This document shows, piece after piece, positions 1,060 through 11,714 of a stretch of DNA of 64,000 nucleotides. The position numbers and the translations under genes were made by a program. Source of the DNA: Methylobacterium nodulans ORS 2060 (GTDB lineage Bacteria > Pseudomonadota > Alphaproteobacteria > Rhizobiales > Beijerinckiaceae); assembly GCF_000022085.1 (NCBI RefSeq), contig NC_011887.1, forward strand, positions 372,001 to 436,000, given 5' to 3'. Within the stretch, counting starts at the first letter, position 1. Every line of letters begins with the position of its first letter. Under the pieces are notes generated by a model. That model saw nothing but the letters and a program-made list of their open reading frames with translations, searched no databases and was not told where the DNA came from.

Positions 1060-1755
1060 CTTAGGGTCATAGGATTTGAACCGCTGCGCGCAAGCTGCGA
1101 CCGGATCTACCGTTACGGTCGCCTCACCGGAGGCCGGCACAACCGCGTCGCTTTCGTAGCCGTAACCTGCGGGTGCGTAGCCGCCGTAGTAATAATCAGG
1201 GTAGTAGCCGCCCGCGTAGCCATAGCCGAGACTGCCTGCGGCCAATCCAAGCCCGAAACCTACACCCAGCGCACCGTACCCATAGCCACGCCGGTATCCG
1301 AAGCGGAGCCTGCCATGAAATCCACCGCGATGGCCGATGAAACCGCCCCGGAATCCAGCACCACGGTAGCCGCCGAAGCCGCTGCGGGCGCCTCCCTCCG
1401 CGAGTGCGTTGCCGCCTCGGAAGCCATTGCCGGCCAGTCCGACTCTGCCGCCCCGGAAGCCCGCACCGGCAAGCCCGGCTCCGCCGCTCAAGCCGCCCGC
1501 TCCGGCTAGACCGGCTCCGCCACCATGGAAGACCCCGCCGCCTAGCGCACTACCTCAACGGAAGCCTCCGCCCGCAAGCCCAGCACCACCGCGGAAACCT
1601 CCAGCTCCCATGCCGGCTCCGCCCCGGAATCCACCGCCTCCGAAGCCGCCGTGGTACCCGCCCGCACCGAATCCGACGGGTCGCGCATCGGCGCTCGCAG
1701 GAAGGATGATCAAGGAGCTGGCCATAGCGGCGATGGCGAACAAGGTTTGCTTCAT
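1012..1755 (-). pseudogene. BA14K-like secreted Gly-rich protein, in-frame stop
   Basis: The ATG at 1755 opens a Sec signal peptide (MKQTLFAIAAMASSLIILPA, then SADA). A Gly/Arg/Phe repeat region (GGFRGGAG-type units) and a C-terminus CAQRFKSYDPKSGTYLGYDG...HPC follow; that ending is the hallmark of the BA14K family. The frame is interrupted once by TGA at 1557-1555, where neighbouring repeat units carry GGA, so a single G-to-T change explains it. The 21 codons after the stop remain in frame and keep the repeat. BA14K proteins are small periplasmic or surface antigens of alphaproteobacteria. It is either a pseudogene or the result of a base-calling error. Confidence 0.7.
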
Positions 1756-2037
1756 GATCTTACGCCTGAGTGTGCGGTTTTCCTCGTTTCCTGAACGCAC
1801 TCAGGTGAGGGCAGGTTTCTGCACACCAGTCGCTGGTAGCCGAAAGCCGCCCCAAGACCCTGCTCGGATGTTCGGAAAACGGTCGGATGCAATTGGCGAA
1901 GTTGCTAGCGAAGATCCGCCGTGAGAACTTACTGCATTCGATCACTGGAGTCACCGCCATAAGGTGAGTTGTGTCCGCTCGTTTCGCGTTCGTTCCTGAA
2001 TACCTGCGGACGTGAGCGCCACACCGGCCGAAACGGC

Positions 2038-3069
2038 TTACTCGTCCTCAGCCTCCTTCCATTCCTGGTATGCGGCGGGATCGTAGATGTGCTCGAGCGT
2101 GGGCACGAAGCGAACTTCCCGCCCGCCAAACTTACGCTTGAAGATGCTGAAGTTCTGCCAACCGTCGCTCGGCGCGCCCTGCGGGGTCACACCGAACAGA
2201 TCGTAGGAGAGGCAGCCGCGGCTCTTTGCCGTCCGCATGATCTCGAAGTGGAGCAGATATGGCGCCATCACGTTGCGGTGCACGTCCCGTGAGCCGCCAT
2301 AGTAGTACGTTGCCATGCGGCCGCTATATACCACCAGCGCCGTCGCGATCCTTGTCCCCTGGTATTCTGAAAAGAAGATCGAACCACGGTCTGCAGCCAG
2401 AAGCCTTGGGATCAAGTTATGAAAGTAGCCGGAGCTGCGTCCATCTTTTCTCCTGCGGTCGAAAGTCTCTCGGTAAACGGCCAAAAAGTCCTCAATCCCC
2501 TTGGAGGAGACGTCCTCGACGACTGACACGCCATACCGCTGAGCGACCCGGATGTTGTACCGGCCTTTCGGTTTCATCTGAGCCAAGATGGCGCTCTCGG
2601 ACGAGGTCAAATCGATATAGAGTGTATCACGGGGAGTGCCATAGTAGTGGCTGGATTTCCGGAATCCCGTCACGAATTCCGGCACGTGCTCCCACCGTGG
2701 ATTGATGCACAGGTGACTGACCACCCGCTGTTCGGTCTGCCGCTTGCGCTCGATGAATGACATCACCGTACGAAAGACCTGCTCCTGCTCGGAAGGCGAG
2801 TCCTCTTCCAGGAAGATTGGGCCGTCAGGGACGATATAGTAGCACTTGCCCGGAGCAAATGAGCGCGCGAGAACCATTGCACCGCCGATGATGGCGTCTC
2901 CGTACCGCAGCACCGTCCCGAACTGCTCCCATCCACGAGCGACCTGCAGCGACGTGTACCACGACAGCTGCCGGAAGCCTGGATCAGCCCTTTGTTCGAT
3001 GAAGGCATCCCACGTCTTCCACCTGTCGAATTCCGAATGCGGCTGCTTAACGGCTACTTCAGCACTCAT
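2038..3069 (-). CDS. FemAB/GNAT-fold aminoacyltransferase-like protein
   Basis: A 343-residue cytosolic protein with the tandem acetyltransferase-like layout of the FemAB (lipid II aminoacyltransferase) family. A central segment includes MKPKGRYNIRVAQRYGV, and a second half contains YYYGGSRDVHRNVMAPYLLHFEIM, LFGVTPQGAPSDGW and FKRKFGG, all typical of Gram-negative FemAB-related proteins. The ATG at 3069 is chosen over a GTG at 3084 because GAGAGG lies just upstream of it. It is on the same strand as, and downstream of, the peptide exporter operon, separated by a dead RibD-like fragment. A role in envelope or exopolysaccharide modification is the family norm. A link to the exported peptide is only speculation. 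Confidence 0.75.
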   Translation of the reverse strand: MSAEVAVKQPHSEFDRWKTWDAFIEQRADPGFRQLSWYTSLQVARGWEQFGTVLRYGDAIIGGAMVLARSFAPGKCYYIVPDGPIFLEEDSPSEQEQVFRTVMSFIERKRQTEQRVVSHLCINPRWEHVPEFVTGFRKSSHYYGTPRDTLYIDLTSSESAILAQMKPKGRYNIRVAQRYGVSVVEDVSSKGIEDFLAVYRETFDRRRKDGRSSGYFHNLIPRLLAADRGSIFFSEYQGTRIATALVVYSGRMATYYYGGSRDVHRNVMAPYLLHFEIMRTAKSRGCLSYDLFGVTPQGAPSDGWQNFSIFKRKFGGREVRFVPTLEHIYDPAAYQEWKEAEDE

Positions 3070-3227
3070 CACTACCTCTCGCACTCTCGATCAATTGCAA
3101 TGTCTCAGACACAGACAACCGCTCCTCTACAGGAGCGACACTTGGCTGATCGAGCGAATGACCGGCCAGGAGCACGAAAATGGTAACGCCTACTTCGCCT
3201 CTCCGGAGAAGCGCTTCCTGCGGGAGC

Positions 3228-3435
3228 CTTGGAACGCGGGGCGCCAAGTCCTACGGCGTGGTGCTCGGTCCTCGGAGCAAGATCGCCCGAAGTCGCACCG
3301 CCATTGAGGGCGACCTCATCGTAGCCGTCCTGACCGAGCAAGCGCCCGACGCGCACCTCGCCGGGCTCCGCGCCGACGGCGTTTCGTACGTTTTCGCTGG
3401 CAACGGCGAACTCGACCTCGGCAAGCTGGGACATC
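3228..3435 (+). pseudogene. C-terminal fragment of a RibD-like/dihydrofolate reductase-fold gene
   Basis: The plus strand encodes SYGVVLGPRSKIARSRTAIE, then VAVLTEQAPDAHLAGLRADG and VSYVFAGNGELDLGK. This matches the later part of the RibD C-terminal (dihydrofolate reductase-like) domain. Both ends of the gene are missing. Similarity stops near 3435, where the opposite-strand exporter gene begins to look normal. The fragment lies antisense under the last ~37 codons of that exporter, so it marks a recombination junction. Confidence 0.6.
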
Positions 3436-5619
3436 AGTATTCGGTATGGTGAGAGGGGTGGCTGGGGGCAGGTGCAGCTCGTGCAGCTCGGTCGCCTCGT
3501 CCGCGCGATGGCAGGAGACCTTGCCGTTGCACAGGGTGATCACCCGGCCCGAGGCGCGGATGGTCTCCGGCCGATGCGCGATCACGATGCGCGTCACGCA
3601 GGCGGCCGCAAGGGCCGCGTTGACCGCCCGCTCGCGATCCACGTCGAGATGGCTCGTCGCCTCATCCAGCAGAAGGATCCCGGGCCGCCGGTACAGGGCG
3701 CGAGCGATCAGCACCCGCTGCTTCTGACCGCCCGACAGCATCGTCCCCATGTCCCCGATCAGCGTGCTGTAGCCCATCGGCATCTGGATGATGTCGGCGT
3801 GCACCGCCGCCAGATCCGCACACTCGACGACCCGCGGCAGATCAGGCTGCTCGGCAAAGAAGCTGATGTTGTCCGCAATCGAGCCGGCGAACAGCTGGTC
3901 GTCCTGCATCACCACACCGAGCATGGCGCGGTAGTTCTGGAGACCGATCCGGCTCATCGGCTCGCCGTTGACCAGGATCTCGCCATGGGTCGGCGCCACG
4001 AGGCCGGAGAGGATCTTCAGCAGCGTCGTCTTGCCGCCGCCGGAGGGCCCCACGATGGCGACCGACTCGCCGGCCTCGATCCGCAGGCTGACGTTGTCGA
4101 GAATCCAGGGCTCGTGCTCGCCGTAGCGGAAGCTGACATGGCGCAGCTCGACCGCTTGCGGCGGGTGGCTCCCTTCCGGCCGAAGGCGCACCGGGCTGCG
4201 CGGCTCCGGCTCGGTGAGGGCGATATCGGCCAGGCGCTCCGCATGCAGCCGGAGCATCTTCAGGTCGACCAGCTTGTTGATCAGCTCCGCGACGCGCTCG
4301 ATGAACTGATCCTTGTACAGGAGGAACGCCAGCAGCAGGCCGACCGACATGGTGTTGGCCATGATGTGGCGTGCGCCGAGCCAGATGATGGTGATCTTCA
4401 GAAAGCCGAACAGCAGCCCGTTCGCCGTCTTGAACAGGAACCGGAGCCGCTCGACGGAGAGCTGCCGGTTGGTGGTGGAGACGAGCAGGTTCAACCAGTG
4501 CGCGCGCCGCTCCTCCTGCCCGTTGAACAGCTTGATGGTGCGGATGCCGCGCAGGGTTTCGAGGAAGTGGCTGTCGCGCCGCGCCGACCACACGATCGCC
4601 TCGGCGGACGCCTCGCGCAAGGGCGTGTAGGAGGCCCAGCGCAGCCCCGCATAGAGCAGGGCGCCCAGCACGGTCACGGCCGCGAGGTCGGGCGCGAACA
4701 GGACCATGATCACCAGCGTGATCCCGGCCATGATCCCGTCGATGATGCTCTCGACCAGGTCGGTCGTGACGACCTGCAGGATGGTCTCCTGAGACGAGAA
4801 GCGGGAGGTCACGTCCCCGAGATGCCGGCTCTCGAAGAACGTGGCGGGCAGGCTGATGAGATGGCTGAACAGGTTGGCGCGCGACTGGATCTTCAGTGTG
4901 GCACTCAGCCCGATCAGCATCCAGCTGCGCATCGCCGTCACGGCGGTTTGGATCAGCAGCAACAGCGAGAAGCCGAGCGCCAGCGTGACAAGCAGGTCGT
5001 GGTCGGCGGTGACGAGCGCATGGTCCACCACCCACTGCAGGAAGAGCGGGCTGATGATGGCGAAGACCTCGATGGCCAGCGCCAGAACGACCTGATTGGT
5101 CAGCGCCCGCTTCACGCCGACGGTGCGGCCGAGCAAGTGCAGGGCCCGGATCCGCGCCGGGGCCGTGGCCGGCACGAAACGGTCGGTCGGGTACAGCTCC
5201 AGCGCCACGCCGGTGAAGTGGCGCGACAGCTGCGCCTTGCTGATGCGGCGGATGCCGACGGACGGATCGTGCACGACGGCACTGCCCCGCGCGACCTTCT
5301 GGAGCACGACGAAGTGATTCAGGTCCCAGTGCAGGATGCAGGGCAGCCGCAGCTGCCCGAGCTCCGCGATCTCCAGGCGCAGGGGACGGGTGGCGAAGCC
5401 GAGCTCGTCCGCAATCCGCATCAGCTCGTTCAGCGTCGCGCCCTTGAGCGACATGCCGTAGCGGCGGCGCAGTTCGGACAGCCCGGTCTGATAGCCGAAG
5501 TAGCTCGCCACCATGGCCAGGCTGGCCAGGCCGCACTCGGCCGCCTCGGTCTGGAGCAGCATCGGGACGCGGCGGCCCCAGCCGAGGTTCAGGCCCTCCA
5601 AGGCGCTTACGCGTGCCAT
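3316..5619 (-). CDS. peptidase-containing ABC exporter (C39 bacteriocin-type)
   Basis: A 767-residue exporter that should cleave a double-glycine leader and pump the core peptide across the inner membrane. The N-terminal C39 cysteine peptidase has Gln23, Cys29 (QTEAAECG), His102 (LNHFVVL) and Asp118 (HDPS). A six-helix membrane domain spans roughly 165-445. The ATPase domain carries Walker A GPSGGGKTT at 524-532, signature LSGGQ at 628-632, Walker B ILLLDE at 648-653 and the H-loop His682. The start at 5619 overlaps the end of the hlyD-like gene by 13 bases, implying coupling. The last ~37 residues are an Arg-rich tail read from antisense RibD debris, so the native end was probably lost. All catalytic motifs are intact. 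Confidence 0.93.
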   Translation of the reverse strand: MARVSALEGLNLGWGRRVPMLLQTEAAECGLASLAMVASYFGYQTGLSELRRRYGMSLKGATLNELMRIADELGFATRPLRLEIAELGQLRLPCILHWDLNHFVVLQKVARGSAVVHDPSVGIRRISKAQLSRHFTGVALELYPTDRFVPATAPARIRALHLLGRTVGVKRALTNQVVLALAIEVFAIISPLFLQWVVDHALVTADHDLLVTLALGFSLLLLIQTAVTAMRSWMLIGLSATLKIQSRANLFSHLISLPATFFESRHLGDVTSRFSSQETILQVVTTDLVESIIDGIMAGITLVIMVLFAPDLAAVTVLGALLYAGLRWASYTPLREASAEAIVWSARRDSHFLETLRGIRTIKLFNGQEERRAHWLNLLVSTTNRQLSVERLRFLFKTANGLLFGFLKITIIWLGARHIMANTMSVGLLLAFLLYKDQFIERVAELINKLVDLKMLRLHAERLADIALTEPEPRSPVRLRPEGSHPPQAVELRHVSFRYGEHEPWILDNVSLRIEAGESVAIVGPSGGGKTTLLKILSGLVAPTHGEILVNGEPMSRIGLQNYRAMLGVVMQDDQLFAGSIADNISFFAEQPDLPRVVECADLAAVHADIIQMPMGYSTLIGDMGTMLSGGQKQRVLIARALYRRPGILLLDEATSHLDVDRERAVNAALAAACVTRIVIAHRPETIRASGRVITLCNGKVSCHRADEATELHELHLPPATPLTIPNTDVPACRGRVRRCQRKRTKRRRRGARRGARRALARSGRLR

Positions 5620-6938
5620 GATCCGCTCAAGGTGTAGAGAGGTTCGAGCACCCACTCGATCAGGCGGCGGCTCTCGATCAGCACGTCCGCCTCCAGCTGC
5701 ATGCCGGGCTGGAGCGCCACGGCCTGCCCATAGGCGACGGCGGTCTGGCGATCGAGCTCGACGGTGACGCGATAGATGGGCTCGTTGCTGCCGAACAACG
5801 CCGTCAGTCCGGCCAGGGTCTGGTTGAGCTCCGCCGGGCTCAGGGCGGAGCGGGACACGGTGGTCACCACCCCGCCGTAGAAGCCGAACTTCTGGTACGG
5901 GAAGGCCTGATAGCGCAGCAGCACCCGCTGCCCGGCGCGCAGGAAGCCGATGCCGCGGCTCGGGCTGAAGAGCTGCGCCTGCAGCTTGGACCGGGACGGC
6001 ACGATGCCGAAGAGAGGAATCGAGGTGGTGGCGTTGCCGCCGGGCTCGGCCTGAAGGCCGGTGATCGTGCCATCCTGAGGAGCCGTGATGACGATCTCCC
6101 GCCGCGCCTCGGCCTCGATCAGGTCCTGCTCCAGCGCCGCGACGCTGCGCTCGCTCTCGTTCTCCTGGATCTGCCGGCGGAGCGGCACGGCCTGCAGGGT
6201 CGCCCACGCCTCGGCCTGTTCGCGCTCCAGAGTTGCGAGGCTGCGTTCCAGCGCCTGGAGCTTGGCGGCCTCGTCGAGGCGTTCCTTCTCCGCCTCCTCC
6301 AGCCGGGGGGCGGTGACGATATCCCGCTTGCGCAACTCGCGGAGGCGAACCGCCGTCCTGTCGGCCATCTCGATCTTGGTCTTCTGAAGGCCGACCTCCA
6401 CTTCCAGATGCTTCCGCTCGGCGCTCAGGATGTCCAGCTTCTTGCGGGCATCGTTGATCTGGTTCTCGAACACTCTCACCTGAACGCTCTTCTCCTGCAT
6501 CATGCTGTCACGGCGCCGTTTCAGCTGCCGGACGACCTCCTGCCGGGTGGCGCCGGCCGCACTGCTCAGCATCTCCGTCGAGATGACCAGCACCGGGCTG
6601 CCCTTCCGAACCGCCATGCCTTCCTGCACGAGGACCTCGGTGATCACGCCGGCCTGCGGGGAGAAGCTCCGGACAACGCCCTGCTCCGGCACGAGCCAGC
6701 CGTTGATGCGCGCCTTGCGCGTGTAGGAGCCGAAGACGAGCAGCAGGACAATCGCCATCACTGCCGCCGATGCAAAGAGCGCGAACATCCAATGGGTGAG
6801 CCGCGGCTCCAGGAGCACGGTGCCGAGCCATTGCGCCTGCCCTTCGGCCAGGACCTCCGCCCGGAACAGCGACTCGCGGTGGATGGGAAGCTGTTTCTGG
6901 CCGGCAGCGAGTTCGGAGTCGGATCCATCCTGGCTCAT
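5607..6938 (-). CDS. HlyD/CvaA-type membrane fusion protein
   Basis: A 443-residue periplasmic adaptor that links the ABC exporter to an outer-membrane channel. It has a short cytosolic N-terminus, one membrane span at about residues 48-70 (WMFALFASAAVMAIVLLLVF), a lipoyl half-motif (GWLVPEQGVVRSFSPQAGVI), a long coiled coil at about 135-275, the second lipoyl half (ITAPQDGTITGLQ), and a C-terminal beta-barrel region ending in LQPGMQLEADVLIESRRLIE. It starts eight bases after the upstream gene and overlaps the exporter. No outer-membrane TolC partner is encoded nearby, so a housekeeping TolC would have to serve. Confidence 0.93.
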   Translation of the reverse strand: MSQDGSDSELAAGQKQLPIHRESLFRAEVLAEGQAQWLGTVLLEPRLTHWMFALFASAAVMAIVLLLVFGSYTRKARINGWLVPEQGVVRSFSPQAGVITEVLVQEGMAVRKGSPVLVISTEMLSSAAGATRQEVVRQLKRRRDSMMQEKSVQVRVFENQINDARKKLDILSAERKHLEVEVGLQKTKIEMADRTAVRLRELRKRDIVTAPRLEEAEKERLDEAAKLQALERSLATLEREQAEAWATLQAVPLRRQIQENESERSVAALEQDLIEAEARREIVITAPQDGTITGLQAEPGGNATTSIPLFGIVPSRSKLQAQLFSPSRGIGFLRAGQRVLLRYQAFPYQKFGFYGGVVTTVSRSALSPAELNQTLAGLTALFGSNEPIYRVTVELDRQTAVAYGQAVALQPGMQLEADVLIESRRLIEWVLEPLYTLSGSWHA

Positions 6939-6946
6939 GGATCAGC

Positions 6947-7906
6947 CTATGCGTCGTCGAGAGACCTGACGGAATAGTCCTTCACCTCGAAGCTCAGCTC
7001 GATGACCTGCGAGGTTCTGCGGACCTGCAGCACTTTGCGGATCCGCGGTTCGAAGAAGTCCTTCAGGAGTGGTGGCCGCGCCGCCCGGAAGTAGAAGCTC
7101 GGCGACGCCATGACCTTGCTCGATGCGAGCAGGCCGAGTTCCTCGCCACGGGTCGCGGTCTGGATGATGCAGGGCGCGAACCGGACGCCCATGGCGCGCA
7201 GCGCGTAGGCGCGATGGTGGCCGTTGTGGAGGAGCAGGCGCGACTCGGATTGGACGACGCTGAGGAAGTTCGATCCGAAGCCGACGATGAGCCCGACGGC
7301 CCCACTCACCGAGCCGAAGGCGGCGTGGTTGGCCAGGTCCTGTGGCTTGAGCAGCAGACATTCGTGGAAGCGCAGATCCGAGGAAGCCGAGACGAACAGG
7401 TACCGGCGTGCGCCGGCCTGCCGGATCTGAACGGGCGCCTCGAAGTCACCGAGGGGCTGGCAGAAGCGGAAGAGGGCTTGCGCATTCAGACGATCTCCGG
7501 CGCGGGCTTGGAGCCGGTCCGCATGGTCGAGATCGATATGGGATTGCGCCACCACCAGACGGTCGAGTTCGACCATTGCGAAACGGGTCGGCACCTTGTC
7601 GAAGGCGCGCCGGTAGCGGGGATCCGCCCGCACCGCGTCGGCCAGCTCGGCACAAGTGGGATCCAGGTCCCGGACCTCGATGGCATCCGCCGCACCCGCC
7701 TCGTTGAGCTCCAGGTGATGGTAGTAGTCGTTGGCCGCGCGCCATTCATCGACCAACGCCGAGCGGGACAGGGCGGCGACGCCGACTGCATGATCCTCGA
7801 CGTAGTCCAGAAAGTCTTGCAGGCCCGGCTGCCCGAGCAACCAAGCTTCCCTGACGCCGACCTGCGGTTCGCCATGAGTCATCGGCCAGTGTTGCCGAGC
7901 GTCCAT
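6947..7906 (-). CDS. ParB/sulfiredoxin-fold-like protein of the peptide export operon
   Basis: A 319-residue soluble protein with no signal peptide. I do not recognise a named family. Two segments resemble the ParB/Srx nucleotide-binding fold: a strand-helix start at VPTRFAMVELDRLVVAQSHI, and LLHNGHHRAYALRAMGV, which parallels the G-x-H-R-x-x-A box of ParB-like domains. The ATG at 7906 has a strong ribosome site (GGGGAGG). It lies between the peptide gene and hlyD-like gene in one orientation with tight spacing, so it probably acts on the peptide: modification, chaperoning, immunity or regulation. None of these can be chosen from sequence alone. Confidence 0.6.
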   Translation of the reverse strand: MDARQHWPMTHGEPQVGVREAWLLGQPGLQDFLDYVEDHAVGVAALSRSALVDEWRAANDYYHHLELNEAGAADAIEVRDLDPTCAELADAVRADPRYRRAFDKVPTRFAMVELDRLVVAQSHIDLDHADRLQARAGDRLNAQALFRFCQPLGDFEAPVQIRQAGARRYLFVSASSDLRFHECLLLKPQDLANHAAFGSVSGAVGLIVGFGSNFLSVVQSESRLLLHNGHHRAYALRAMGVRFAPCIIQTATRGEELGLLASSKVMASPSFYFRAARPPLLKDFFEPRIRKVLQVRRTSQVIELSFEVKDYSVRSLDDA

Positions 7907-8008
7907 GCCATCCTCCCCAGGCCTACAGGCGGAAAGCTGCGGCCGTCGTTCGTACCCCTTGTCGTGTGCGCACCGGCGGCGATCCGCCGGTGCGCTTGGC
8001 CGTTAGGC

Positions 8009-8164
8009 CTAGCCGTGCCTCTTGCTCTTGGACTTCGAGTGCTTCTTCGAGCGGCTCGCGTGCTTGCTCTTGCTCTTGCTGCCGTGCTTTCTGTCCCCCG
8101 AGCCGCAAGATGGCGAGCCCGCCCCATAGACATGGGTCAGTTCGTCGATAGTCAGTTCACGCAT
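8009..8164 (-). CDS. double-glycine-type leader peptide with Lys/Ser/His-rich core
   Basis: A 51-residue ORF. The leader MRELTIDELTHVYGA fits the class II bacteriocin / C39 consensus exactly: Leu at -12, Glu at -8, Leu at -7, Val at -4, Gly-Ala at -2/-1. The predicted 36-residue core starts GSPSCGSGDRKHG and continues as SK repeats (SKSKSKHASRSKKHSKSKSK). It holds nine Lys, three Arg, four His, one Cys and a single Asp. The ATG at 8164 is preceded by GGGAGA. It is the first gene of the export operon, and the operon contains its matching peptidase-transporter. It is probably a secreted cationic peptide, with antimicrobial, metal-binding or signalling roles all possible. A spurious ORF in this composition is unlikely given the perfect leader. 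Confidence 0.85.
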   Translation of the reverse strand: MRELTIDELTHVYGAGSPSCGSGDRKHGSKSKSKHASRSKKHSKSKSKRHG

Positions 8165-9026
8165 TTTGGTTCTCCCGTTTCAACAGGCCGCACTTCTTTC
8201 GGCCGAAGCATCGTCTACAACGTGCCTCGGATCCTGTTTTTTGCTGCGGCAGGTTTCTGTAGTTCAGCAATCAAACAGAAACCAGTGCGAAAAGGGGGTA
8301 TTTTGGATTATTACAAATGTAAGAAAAACATCATGAACTAGCGCGAATAAGATTTGCCCCGCATGCATCAACATGACAGAAGCCAAGCCTTACAGGCATC
8401 TAGCGAGGAATATGTATCGCGACCCCGGTGCGTACCGCACCGTGGCTGCAATTGATTGGTCGCGTGTTATGTTATGTTTTTATGTATTTCTGCCTGCTGC
8501 GCCAAGCAATGACCTTACGCCGCGGCCGAAGGAGGCGTGCTGGCAGAGCGGCTGCCGGACGGTGCCGAAGCACGCATGGCGGTCCTCCTGTTTGTATCCT
8601 CGGCTCGACGGCCGAGCAGGCGTCACCGGTCATCCATTGCCGGAGCGCTGCGTGCCGTTCGCATTGGCTTCGGCCCTGAGCCGGCCATTCTTTCGGGTCG
8701 GGTATCACACGCAACTGTGAGTTTCGCTAACAAATTTGAGTTCTCCAGTCAGTTTCGCGTGGATCGGCCACATTGTTGTTCGGCACGACAGCAGGCAGCC
8801 GATCACGCCAAGGATGCGCAGCAGTTCTATCTTGAGCATGACCGGATTTACGCGCTGGAGGACGTCGATGACCTGCCGACCGGCGCACCAGATCGCCCCG
8901 GCCAGACATCGAGTGCCCTGCCAGGGTACGAGCCATTACCGAGGAGGCGCTTGATGCAAGCTCTTCAGTTGAGAAGCCTTGCCAACAGCGCACCGACTTG
9001 CCGCCATTGACGCCGTGTGGTGTTGA
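8165..9026. other. long intergenic region upstream of the peptide operon
   Basis: About 860 bases without a convincing gene. The stretch 8280-8350 is AT-rich relative to its surroundings (it includes GGATTATTACAAATGTAAG) and is the best place for the peptide operon promoter, although no clear -35/-10 pair could be fixed. ORFs here on both strands have no protein-like composition. 8440-8490 is also AT-rich. Confidence 0.45.
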
Positions 9027-9656
9027 TTATTCCCTGGGTCGCCAAACAATTTTTCTTGCCGCCTCTGGGCACGCGGCGCAATCCGGCCGGATCCTGCGTA
9101 TCGGAGAGTTTGACTGAAACCCTCGGATCGATCCTCGCCAGACCCCCGGCTTCGGCTTGTTGGTGGGCCAGTTGTGGGTCTCGTCGGTGGCGTCCCGGCA
9201 CCAGCGGTAGAAGGCATCGTAAAGCAGCATCCCGGCATCGAGCTGCGCCAGATCGTCGGCATACATCCGCGACAGCCCGAGCGAGGCGGCGAGCAGACCG
9301 GCTGCCTCGGGGGCGAGGTCGAGCCGCGCCGTATCGGCGCCGCGCACGATGGCCGCCAGCCGGCGCAGGGGCTCGGTCCCGAGGTTCAGCTCCTCGACCA
9401 TCACGTCGAAGCTGCACCGCTCGCCCCGGTGGCTCCAGAACACCTCCGGGCTGTCGATGTCGAAGGGCGCGCCACCGAAGCCCTCGGCCACCGCCTCGAC
9501 CTCGGAGGGGGGCACGAACAGGAACACGGCGGCGGGATCGACGAAGCGGCGGATCAGCCACGGGCAGGCGATGCGGTCGATCTTCGGTCGCGCGCGCGTG
9601 ACCCACACGGTCCGGCCCAGGGCATCGCGGGCGGGCAGCTTGTCGGCCGGCACCAT
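9027..9656 (-). CDS. chrB: ChrB-type chromate resistance domain protein with foreign tail
   Basis: A 209-residue protein matching the C-terminal ChrB domain: RPKIDRIACPWLIRRFVDP, FLFVP, PFDIDSPEVFWSHRGE, then AGMLLYDAFYRWCRDATDE and HNWP. ChrB proteins sense chromate or support chromate resistance. The N-terminal ChrB region is absent, and the last ~40 residues (after NKPKPGVW) are Arg-rich and look like readthrough past a junction. The 5' end abuts a transposase remnant whose coding sequence fades at about 9670. No chrA transporter is seen. The domain core looks intact, but whether it is expressed is doubtful. Confidence 0.65.
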   Translation of the reverse strand: MVPADKLPARDALGRTVWVTRARPKIDRIACPWLIRRFVDPAAVFLFVPPSEVEAVAEGFGGAPFDIDSPEVFWSHRGERCSFDVMVEELNLGTEPLRRLAAIVRGADTARLDLAPEAAGLLAASLGLSRMYADDLAQLDAGMLLYDAFYRWCRDATDETHNWPTNKPKPGVWRGSIRGFQSNSPIRRIRPDCAACPEAARKIVWRPRE

Positions 9657-9669
9657 GGGCAACCGCCGA

Positions 9670-10103
9670 GAGCAGATCGATGGCGGCATAGCTCATATCG
9701 GCGACCGCGACGATCTCTCGCCCCGGCAGCCAGCGCGCGAGCAGGAGCAGCAGCTGGCGCGCCCAGTCGGTCAGCTGCGCGCCTTAATCTTGGTGCCACA
9801 GCGCCGCTCAAGGGTCTCGTCGATGCCGACCACCACCGGCCCGCTCGGCACGAACGCCGCGATCAGCAGCCCGAGCAGGCCGCGCGCCGTCGCCTGGGCG
9901 CGCCAGCGCCTGCGGCTCAGCACGCGATGCTCGGTGCTGACCGTCACCCCCTCGCGCAAGCCCAGGCTGCTCAGCGCCGCGGTCACGGTCCGCCGCCCGG
10001 GCGCGAGCACGGCCCCGGCGACGAGCACCGGCAGGGTGGCGAAGGTCGGACGCGTGAAGCAGGCGGCCAAGGGCGCCATCCAGGTGGACAGGACGGCGGG
10101 CAC
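9670..10103 (-). pseudogene. IS701-like DDE transposase remnant
   Basis: It starts at GTG 10103 and reads PAVLSTWMAPLAACFTRPT, LVAGAVLAPGRRTVTAALSS, VVVGIDETLERRCGTKIKA. The frame then breaks, and a later piece follows directly (LTDWARQLLLLLARWLPGRE, then IVAVADMSYAAIDLLSAV) before the ChrB gene begins. An internal stretch and the whole C-terminus are deleted. The IS701/IS4-like assignment rests on recognition of the DDE-type blocks and is moderately sure. Confidence 0.6.
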
Positions 10104-10248: not shown

Positions 10249-11714
10249 GAGCCCGTCCGAGTAAGTACCTCGACGGCGGCGCTTTGGGATGATTCACTCG
10301 GCTCATGGCCAAGGTGTTTCGCTCCTGGGACGTCGATCAGGGCTGGCTGCTGCCACCCTCGCTGCATGAGTTCGTGCCGCCCGGGCACATGGCGCACTTC
10401 GTGCGCGATACGGTGCGCGAGGCGCTCGACCTCTCAGCCATTCTCGACACCTACACCGAGGAGCGCGGCTACCCGCCCTACCATCCCGGCATGATGGTGG
10501 CCCTGCTCCTCTACGGCTACAGCCGCGGTCTGTACTCGTCGCGTCAGCTCGCCCGCGCCTGCGAGGAGCGGGTTGACTTCATGGCCGTGACCGGCCTGAA
10601 CCGGCCCGACTTCCGCACCATCGCTGACTTCCGCAAGCGGCATCTGACGGCGCTCTCGGACCTGTTCGTGCAGGTGCTGCGGCTGTGCCGGGCGGCCGGG
10701 CTGGTCGGCTTTGCCCACGTGGCGGTGGACGGCACCAAGCTGAAGGCCAACGCCTCGCGCCACAAGGCGATGAGCTACGGCCGGATGAAGGCGGCCGAGT
10801 CGACGCTGGCCGCCGAGGTCGAGGCTTGGCTGGATCAAGCGCGCGAGGCCGACGCGGCGGAGGATCGGGCTCATGGGACCGACCATCGTGGCGACGAGAC
10901 ACCGGCCTGGATGGCCGACAAGCAGCGGCGGCTGGAGACGATCCGCGCCGCCAAGGCCGCGTTGGAGGCAGAGGCTGCCGATCCGCCCGATCCGGAGGAC
11001 GAGGACGGGCCGGGGGCCTCGTCGGGCATGCGCTGGCAAGGTCGGCCCTTGCGGGGCGAGGACGGCGGTCCGCCCGACCGGGCGCAGCGCAACTTCACCG
11101 ACCCGGACAGCCGCATCCTGCCCACGCGCGACGGGTTCGTGCAGGGCTACAACGGCCAGATTGCGGTTGATGCGGCCCATCAGGTGATCGTCGCGCATCG
11201 GCTCGTGACGAACCCCGCCGACTCGCGCGCTCTCGTGCCGCTCGTCGACGGCGTCTGCACCCATCTCGGGCGCAAGCCGCGGGAGGTCTCCGGAGATGCC
11301 GGCTTTGCCACCGAGGCGAACCTGGCCGCGCTGCAGGAGCGACGGATCACAGCCTATCTCGCTCCGGGCCGTGCCCGTCACGGCGAGGCGGATGCAGCAG
11401 GTCGCCGGAGGCTGACGAAGATGCCCCTGATGAGCGCGATGGCCGTCCGCCTGAAGCGGGCTGGGCGCCGGAGCCGTTACCGTCTCAGGAAGCAGGTCGT
11501 CGAGCCGGTGTTCGGGCAGATCAAGCAGGCCAGAGGCTTCCGACAGTTCCTGCTACGTGGGCTCGATCAGGTCCGCGGCGAGTGGGCGATGATCTGCACC
11601 GCCCATAACCTCCTGAAGCTGGCGCAGGCCGCGCGCTGAGCCTGTGGCGCAGGAGCCATCCGCCCAGATCTCAACCTTAGTCCCAACGCATCAAACCGTT
11701 ACTCGGACGGGCTC
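10249..11714 (+). mobile_element. IS1182-family insertion sequence, copy 1
   Basis: 1466 bases bounded by perfect 16-base inverted repeats (GAGCCCGTCCGAGTAA at 10249-10264 and its complement at 11699-11714), flanked by CTAG on both sides (10245-10248, 11715-11718). It carries one transposase gene. A second copy of the same length lies at 29751-31216; its transposase differs at scattered residues, so the copies are not a recent duplication of each other. Confidence 0.9.
10305..11639 (+). CDS. IS1182-family transposase
   Basis: A 444-residue DDE transposase. The N-terminal domain starts MAKVFRSWDVDQGWLLPPSL and includes PYHPGMMVALLLYGYSRGLY. The catalytic core begins at HVAVDGTKLKANASRHKAM (first Asp), continues through GYNGQIAVDAAHQVIVAHR and EVSGDAGFATEANL, and ends with RKQVVEPVFGQIKQARGF (Glu) and GEWAMICTAHNLLKL. 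An acidic, low-complexity insert lies near 180-240. It is full length with no disruption, so the element is potentially active. Confidence 0.92.
   Translation: MAKVFRSWDVDQGWLLPPSLHEFVPPGHMAHFVRDTVREALDLSAILDTYTEERGYPPYHPGMMVALLLYGYSRGLYSSRQLARACEERVDFMAVTGLNRPDFRTIADFRKRHLTALSDLFVQVLRLCRAAGLVGFAHVAVDGTKLKANASRHKAMSYGRMKAAESTLAAEVEAWLDQAREADAAEDRAHGTDHRGDETPAWMADKQRRLETIRAAKAALEAEAADPPDPEDEDGPGASSGMRWQGRPLRGEDGGPPDRAQRNFTDPDSRILPTRDGFVQGYNGQIAVDAAHQVIVAHRLVTNPADSRALVPLVDGVCTHLGRKPREVSGDAGFATEANLAALQERRITAYLAPGRARHGEADAAGRRRLTKMPLMSAMAVRLKRAGRRSRYRLRKQVVEPVFGQIKQARGFRQFLLRGLDQVRGEWAMICTAHNLLKLAQAAR

Follow-up and report, generated by a model that had tools for sequence, protein, structure and literature searches.

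In the 64,000-nucleotide stretch of Methylobacterium nodulans ORS 2060 analysed here (hereafter the window; contig NC_011887.1, positions 372,001 to 436,000), a minus-strand operon carries, in this order, the genes for a precursor peptide, a protein of 319 amino acids (aa) that we call P319, an HlyD-type periplasmic adaptor, a C39 peptidase-ABC exporter and a FemAB-like protein. We consider it moderately probable that this is a dedicated biosynthesis-and-export operon, in which P319 modifies a polar repeat precursor before export by the C39 system, in the manner of a ribosomally synthesised and post-translationally modified peptide (RiPP). The precursor is ribosomal, its leader is conserved and its core is variable, as is usual for RiPPs. 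The export half of the system is of a known kind; the type of core and the partner with a ParB/sulfiredoxin fold set it apart. A preliminary description of this DNA had pointed to an unrecognised export system with a polar Lys/Ser-rich core, and our results support this. It had also placed the peptide gene at the head of an operon with the C39-ABC and HlyD genes, which holds, but the gene next to the peptide is P319, which had been overlooked, and a FemAB-like gene lies downstream. The presence of this ParB/sulfiredoxin-fold protein between the peptide and the exporter suggests peptide modification. Our literature search, which left subscription papers largely outside its reach, found no description of the operon, its peptides or P319.

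Conservation and character of the precursor peptide

The precursor gene (8009-8164, minus strand) encodes 51 aa, consisting of the leader MRELTIDELTHVYGA (8120-8164) and the core GSPSCGSGDRKHGSKSKSKHASRSKKHSKSKSKRHG (8012-8119), followed by a stop codon at 8009-8011. A Shine-Dalgarno-like GGAG lies at 8172-8175 on the same strand, 7 nt ahead of the ATG. The C39-type leader residues first proposed for it, Leu at -12, Glu at -8, Leu at -7, Val at -4 and Gly-Ala at -2/-1, are borne out by the translation, as is a core of 36 residues containing nine Lys, four His and one Cys, in which one Ala and one Pro are the only hydrophobic residues.

How widely is this peptide retained beside P319? Scanning a collection of 84,980 species with two patterns derived from a 29-sequence P319 alignment gave at least 28 loci, mostly from Alpha-, Beta- and Gammaproteobacteria, with one from a metagenome-assembled genome of Ca. 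Eisenbacteria. Three more came from 72,556 plasmids, searched at the protein level, and one (L037) from viral contigs, bringing the total to 33 with the window; P319 is present in each by construction of the set. A leader peptide stands directly 5′ of P319 in all 31 loci in which P319 is unbroken and exporter-linked, so that the small open reading frame (ORF) is conserved beside homologous exporters, the check that the preliminary description had proposed. This count omits L036 (P319 broken) and L037 (no exporter); 30 of the loci were found by pattern, and L041, whose Trp at -7 escapes the pattern, was added by hand from its annotated ORF. In L036, HlyD is also degraded, and the peptide is absent from the genome. 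The gap between peptide and P319 ranges from 15 to 228 nt, with 475 nt for the second copy in L022, and GGAG or a similar sequence, judged by eye, precedes the peptides of the 31 loci.

A short peptide of low complexity might reflect an ORF that arose by chance in GC-rich DNA and adjoins an exporter unrelated to it. We give this practically no credence, since it is refuted by conservation: all 31 loci have the peptide, ribosome-binding sites precede it and its leader is preserved. When the strict leader pattern was run over both strands of 604,176 bases (the window and 32 loci), 30 loci accounted for 31 matches immediately 5′ of P319, and the one remaining match fell at another position in the P319 locus L041, leaving no stray match outside P319 loci. 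With its conserved leader, GGAG and homologues 5′ of P319, the 51-residue ORF is real, as had been proposed. The loci were gathered via P319, and the converse was sampled by running a peptide profile on two sets of genomes, 385 from the class and 398 from the phylum; full-leader matches were confined to the window's own genome, like canonical P319. Two weak matches in the class sample (E 1.3e-4 and 9.3e-4) were dismissed as chance, since their alignments begin only at position 15 or 8 of the profile and include a stop codon.

The leader of the locus peptides is a 15-residue sequence of the double-glycine type, MRxLxxxExxxV(Y/S)G(A/G). Conservation was counted over 91 distinct peptides (95 collected, with P0183 left out for lacking Val at -4 and duplicates merged), in which R, L, V and G at 100% are demanded by the search pattern itself. 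All 91 have Glu at -8, 89 have Leu at -7 and 88 have Tyr at -3, and residue -1 is Ala in 74 and Gly in 17.

The cores cannot be aligned between loci, and what they share is a character of polar Ser/Gly/Lys/Arg/Asn/His repeats. Their composition was taken from the 31 locus peptides, with 62 database peptides set aside because the profile that found them included cores: Ser 21%, Gly 19%, Lys 18%, Arg 12%, Asn 7%, and Cys, His and Thr 4% each, with a median of 5% hydrophobic residues, 4 to 16 Ser and Thr per core, and a net charge of -9 to +16 (median +12). Lys and His, seen at first as the defining core feature, are not constant, some cores being rich in Arg and Asn and one acidic; the constant is Ser or Thr, plus Gly, plus a basic residue or Asn. 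The styles include SKSK (the window and Microvirga), KHSTKK (L022), TNKQNTNK (L019), an acidic form (L025) and, in Rhodobacterales, a block of Arg/Lys followed by SNSNS. Ser appears to be maintained as Ser, because codons of both Ser families are present in 23 of the 31 cores.

Two further arrangements of leader peptides were observed. On the chromosome of the window's own genome (L071, 8143-8307; also L002), an orphan paralogous precursor, MRILTSEELGHVYGAG..., has the same leader and an SK-rich core; it adjoins an IS240-type transposase, and no P319 or exporter match was found in the 16 kb read around it. On a Blastomonas plasmid (L041, 1334-3698), P319 and a 2-oxoglutarate (2OG)-Fe(II) oxygenase are flanked by two different leader peptides.

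The exporter and the comparison with class II microcins

The earlier assignment of the C39 peptidase-ABC and HlyD genes is confirmed by Pfam. The adaptor (443 aa; 5607-6938, minus strand) matches HlyD_3 at E 1.4e-12, with TIGR01843 at E 1e-38, below its cut-off. The exporter (767 aa; 3316-5619, minus strand) matches Peptidase_C39 (E 2.6e-35), ABC_membrane (E 1.5e-36) and ABC_tran (E 3.6e-33), and its translation, read by eye, contains the Cys, His and Asp that a C39 protease should have. The genes are closely packed, with 102 nt between precursor and P319, 8 nt between P319 and HlyD, and an overlap of 13 nt between HlyD and C39-ABC. HlyD and C39-ABC are each present in 30 of the 31 loci, the two absences (L032 and L011) falling at contig ends; HlyD of L012 is shortened to 215 aa. 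Seven loci (L022, L031-L035 and L041) have a more distant exporter, with C39-ABC 38-41% identical, which lies on the opposite strand in six. An OEP-like outer-membrane gene accompanies six of the 31 loci; none is grouped with the operon in the window's 20 kb, and no search was made for a TolC gene in the rest of the genome. Two other assignments were rejected, namely NHLP bacteriocin export (TIGR03796; 485 bits for the exporter against a cut-off of 853) and Mersacidin (Pfam E 0.093, below cut-off).

Could the product be an unmodified bacteriocin of the class II microcin type, with P319 as its immunity protein? In the available part of the literature on these microcins, the type is described by a GG or GA leader, a C39-ABC transporter and a membrane fusion protein (PMC9746304). 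The window system has the same features: a double-glycine leader with L-12, E-8, L-7, V-4 and GG/GA on a small precursor, and an adjoining C39-ABC exporter, with its catalytic residues, and HlyD membrane fusion protein. Most cores are also cationic. It differs from colicin V and its like in its hydrophilic repeat core, its ParB/sulfiredoxin-fold partner and its optional FemAB-like and 2OG-oxygenase genes. The same source gives confirmed immunity proteins as 51-216 aa long, tending to have membrane helices and with little or no mutual similarity (PMC9746304), whereas P319 has 319 aa, averages only 1.74 in its most hydrophobic 19-residue segment, and keeps a median identity of about 49% among main-type loci while the cores change completely. 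The scarcity of hydrophobic core residues argues against a bacteriocin as well, and we regard this explanation as improbable. No adjacent small immunity gene was recognised; there is no room for one between the window's precursor and exporter, and unannotated small ORFs elsewhere were not examined.

P319 as a candidate modification enzyme

No Pfam domain was found in P319 (6947-7906, minus strand) across 87 members of its family, or in 120 of its 1,097 relatives among the matches listed. In its AlphaFold2 model (predicted local distance difference test score, 92), a ParB/sulfiredoxin fold at about residues 94-300 accompanies an N-terminal helical region, and the nearest structures are sulfiredoxin, the serine kinases SerK and SbnI, and ParB. 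A G-x-H-R motif (G229, H231 and R232, in 28 of 28 sequences) corresponds to the Box II or P-motif GxxR named for the superfamily in the available part of a 2025 PNAS survey, according to which this fold binds diverse nucleoside triphosphates in varied functions (PMC12704722).

Several features suggest that P319 is a modification enzyme that acts on the precursor. First, a branch of its family is linked to lasso peptide clusters. This branch diverges from such a cluster in nine of nine full-length loci of another genus, Stenotrophomonas judging by the names of relatives (L069, 3189-7111; L070, 6788-10699; and L072-L080), and is 30-36% identical to the window's P319. The cluster comprises a precursor, 85-100% identical throughout, and Transglut_core3 (B) and Asn_synthase (C) proteins. 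Ten of 61 genomes matched the branch, nine at full length with the cluster and the tenth as a fragment without it. If the Thr(-2) rule is applied, as in the published Stenotrophomonas precursor (PMC4675943, seen in part), the lasso core would be AHNHGTLWDGVFPTTSP. This neighbourhood would link the P319 family to peptide maturation. Second, 2OG-oxygenase and FemAB-like genes neighbour P319 in some operons. Third, the nearest enzymes of its fold include SerK and SbnI, which move phosphate onto Ser. Fourth, distances between P319 sequences are correlated with those between the exporters (Mantel r 0.71 and 0.77; 0.875 and 0.874 over 22 main-type loci). Since the cores drift beyond alignment, P319, if it acts on them, must recognise either the leader or some general core property.

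Ser/Thr phosphorylation is the most plausible chemistry for P319, and we propose it tentatively. There is precedent in the lasso clusters that contain kinases (paeninodin PadeK and pseudomycoidin PsmK), in which PadeK phosphorylates a Ser of the lasso precursor before leader removal; the available part of the review on such tailoring kinases contains no mention of ParB (PMC9266682). The P319 branch resembles these in adjoining a lasso B/C/precursor cluster. The window system differs in exporting through C39 and in having no lasso cyclase: neither a lasso B protease nor an Asn-synthase-like cyclase was found in the window operon, whose genes have other domains, and B and C accompany the other P319 branch alone. 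In Microbulbifer, a copper-binding RiPP cluster was also considered and dropped, as the part of its description that was available mentions neither ParB, sulfiredoxin nor lasso (PMC12538549).

With SerK and SbnI, P319 shares the fold, and its NGHHR aligns with DGHHR of SerK; it differs in its extra N-terminal helical region, its length of 319 aa, its peptide-cluster context and a Glu30 that is not clearly kept. Sulfiredoxin acts on protein Cys through a catalytic Cys in a GCHR motif, and at this Cys position P319 has Y, H or S.

A number of results weigh against P319 as a modifying enzyme, and against a kinase in particular. Foldseek gave no PDB match for P319 at E <= 0.001, its first row by E-value with the better model was the unrelated HisB (probability 0.02), and the VIA Z for P319 is below 8, a range in which chance arrangements are possible. 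The sequence match to SerK is weak (E 0.0087 with alignment A1) and falls to E 0.17 with the more diverse alignment A5, where an unrelated protein disulfide isomerase comes first; with the NCBIfam SerK model NF053625, P319 scores 14 bits, below the cut-off of 380. Residue-level agreement with SerK differs between the sequence and structural registers: SerK Glu30, for which there are entries of the mutants E30Q and E30A, falls on P319 Gln121 (27 of 28) in the structural register, and the sequence register pairs it with a variable residue, which makes a SerK-type mechanism doubtful. In addition, FemAB-like genes occur in only four and 2OG-oxygenase genes in only three of the 31 loci, two of the 91 cores have Thr only in place of Ser and one is acidic, and the P319 homologue of L037 stands without peptide and exporter.

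P319 might instead be a nucleotide-dependent escort, comparable with the cytidine triphosphate switch of ParB, that binds the leader, shields the polycationic core from nucleic acids and passes it to the exporter with no covalent change. ParB, Noc and KorB are among its fold matches, Gln121 is placed where ParB proteins presumably carry Gln, and the nucleotide binding of the fold and its varied functions would suit such a switch. However, the family also adjoins lasso clusters, whose precursors are not polycations, the 2OG-oxygenase and FemAB-like genes point to modification, and no Pfam helix-turn-helix domain was found in P319, though a diverged one is possible. We consider an escort unlikely, though not negligibly so. 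A role in toxin-antitoxin or defence systems was dropped: a VapB-like Pfam match occurs in only three of 87 members (best E 0.019), and PADLOC, given four proteins, returned none.

For a modifying P319, we propose the following route. P319 would recognise the conserved leader and, with a nucleotide bound at its G-x-H-R site, would alter the recurring Ser/Thr residues of the core ahead of export; in some lineages, FemAB-like and 2OG-oxygenase proteins might add further changes. The C39 domain would then cleave after Gly-Ala or Gly-Gly as the peptide leaves by way of HlyD and a channel of the TolC type. The secreted products would be 28-56 residues long and for the most part polycations, or zwitterions if they are phosphorylated; once outside, they may bind surfaces, minerals or metals, or be directed at competitors.

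In a bolder and rather unlikely version, P319 would use the ParB/sulfiredoxin fold to modify RiPPs as the first of a new enzyme class, in which a kinase guided by the leader (poly)phosphorylates the Ser/Thr repeats of C39-exported polycationic peptides and, in the sister branch, lasso precursors. Its products would be silaffin-like secreted phosphopeptides, with Lys/Arg alternating with phospho-Ser, that bind minerals, metals or surfaces, and Lys aminoacylation by FemAB-like proteins and 2OG-dependent hydroxylation would be lineage extras. Diatom silaffins contain repeats of Ser with clustered Lys; they are eukaryotic, and the window core resembles these features by composition alone. If P319 does modify precursors, one more fold would join the RiPP toolkit, and P319 would offer a genome-mining handle on hidden polar peptides that are easily thrown out as low-complexity. 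The system also makes testable the question of whether a nucleotide-binding ParB/sulfiredoxin fold can act on peptide hydroxyls.

Accessory genes, distribution and surroundings of the operon

The FemAB/GNAT-fold protein of the window (348 aa; 2038-3084, minus strand; Pfam FemAB, E 2.2e-29), a candidate second modifier, is encoded 231 nt beyond the exporter gene on the same strand; its homologues in the three other loci that have it (L011, L021 and L023) are 48-49% identical. In L033, L034 and L041, P319 has the 2OG-Fe(II) oxygenase gene as a neighbour, and in L041 the two overlap by 4 nt. A HAMP-HisKA-HATPase kinase and a response regulator stand by the operon in nine of the 31 loci, L026 and eight of Rhodobacterales, where they lie directly downstream of the exporter gene (L012, 13578-15926; L015, L020, L028-L030, L039 and L040 alike). 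This proximity would fit a peptide that signals to the two-component system, but no such genes appeared in what was read of the remaining 22 loci, including the window's 20 kb (some contigs are short, and weaker kinase matches in L023 and L024 were not counted), and the cores are low-complexity and variable, unlike receptor-specific pheromones. A signal is therefore, in our judgement, very improbable, even more so than a bacteriocin.

The operon is rare and patchy in bacteria. P319 was found in none of 60 sampled relatives of the window's genome, 36 of them of the same genus. Beyond the window's genome, it was absent from the class sample (384 genomes), and the phylum sample (397 genomes) yielded two cases, both lasso-type. 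The idea that the system is general in Methylobacterium is thus not upheld, though M. nigriterrae has the nearest named P319 (84% identical). Among the eight contigs of the genome (8,839,022 bases), that of the window has 458,070 bases and is probably a plasmid. Carriage on plasmids (L039-L041, and probably the window's contig) together with patchiness suggests horizontal spread of the operon.

Among 50,697 phages, P319 was found in none; in viral contigs, a single-protein query found none and an alignment query only L037. In the region 8016-9708 of this IMG/VR contig, which also has integrase- and terminase-like ORFs, a P319 homologue (38%) precedes a HEPN_AbiU2-like ORF (Pfam E 1e-4, short of the cut-off). 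Because this homologue has no peptide, the wider P319 family is not solely peptide-linked, and it possibly represents another use of the family.

Around the window operon, a scan found no sigma-70 promoter, and terminator-like sites were no commoner than chance. A transposase gene (10305-11639) lies 2.1 kb upstream, and between it and the upstream side of the operon sits the gene for a protein with a ChrB C-terminal domain (9027-9689, minus strand; Pfam E 1.5e-44). Downstream of the operon are two adjoining Gly-rich repeat ORFs (1012-1491 and 1555-1800, minus strand), of which the upstream one begins like a signal peptide; they are possibly a single secreted protein split over two frames.

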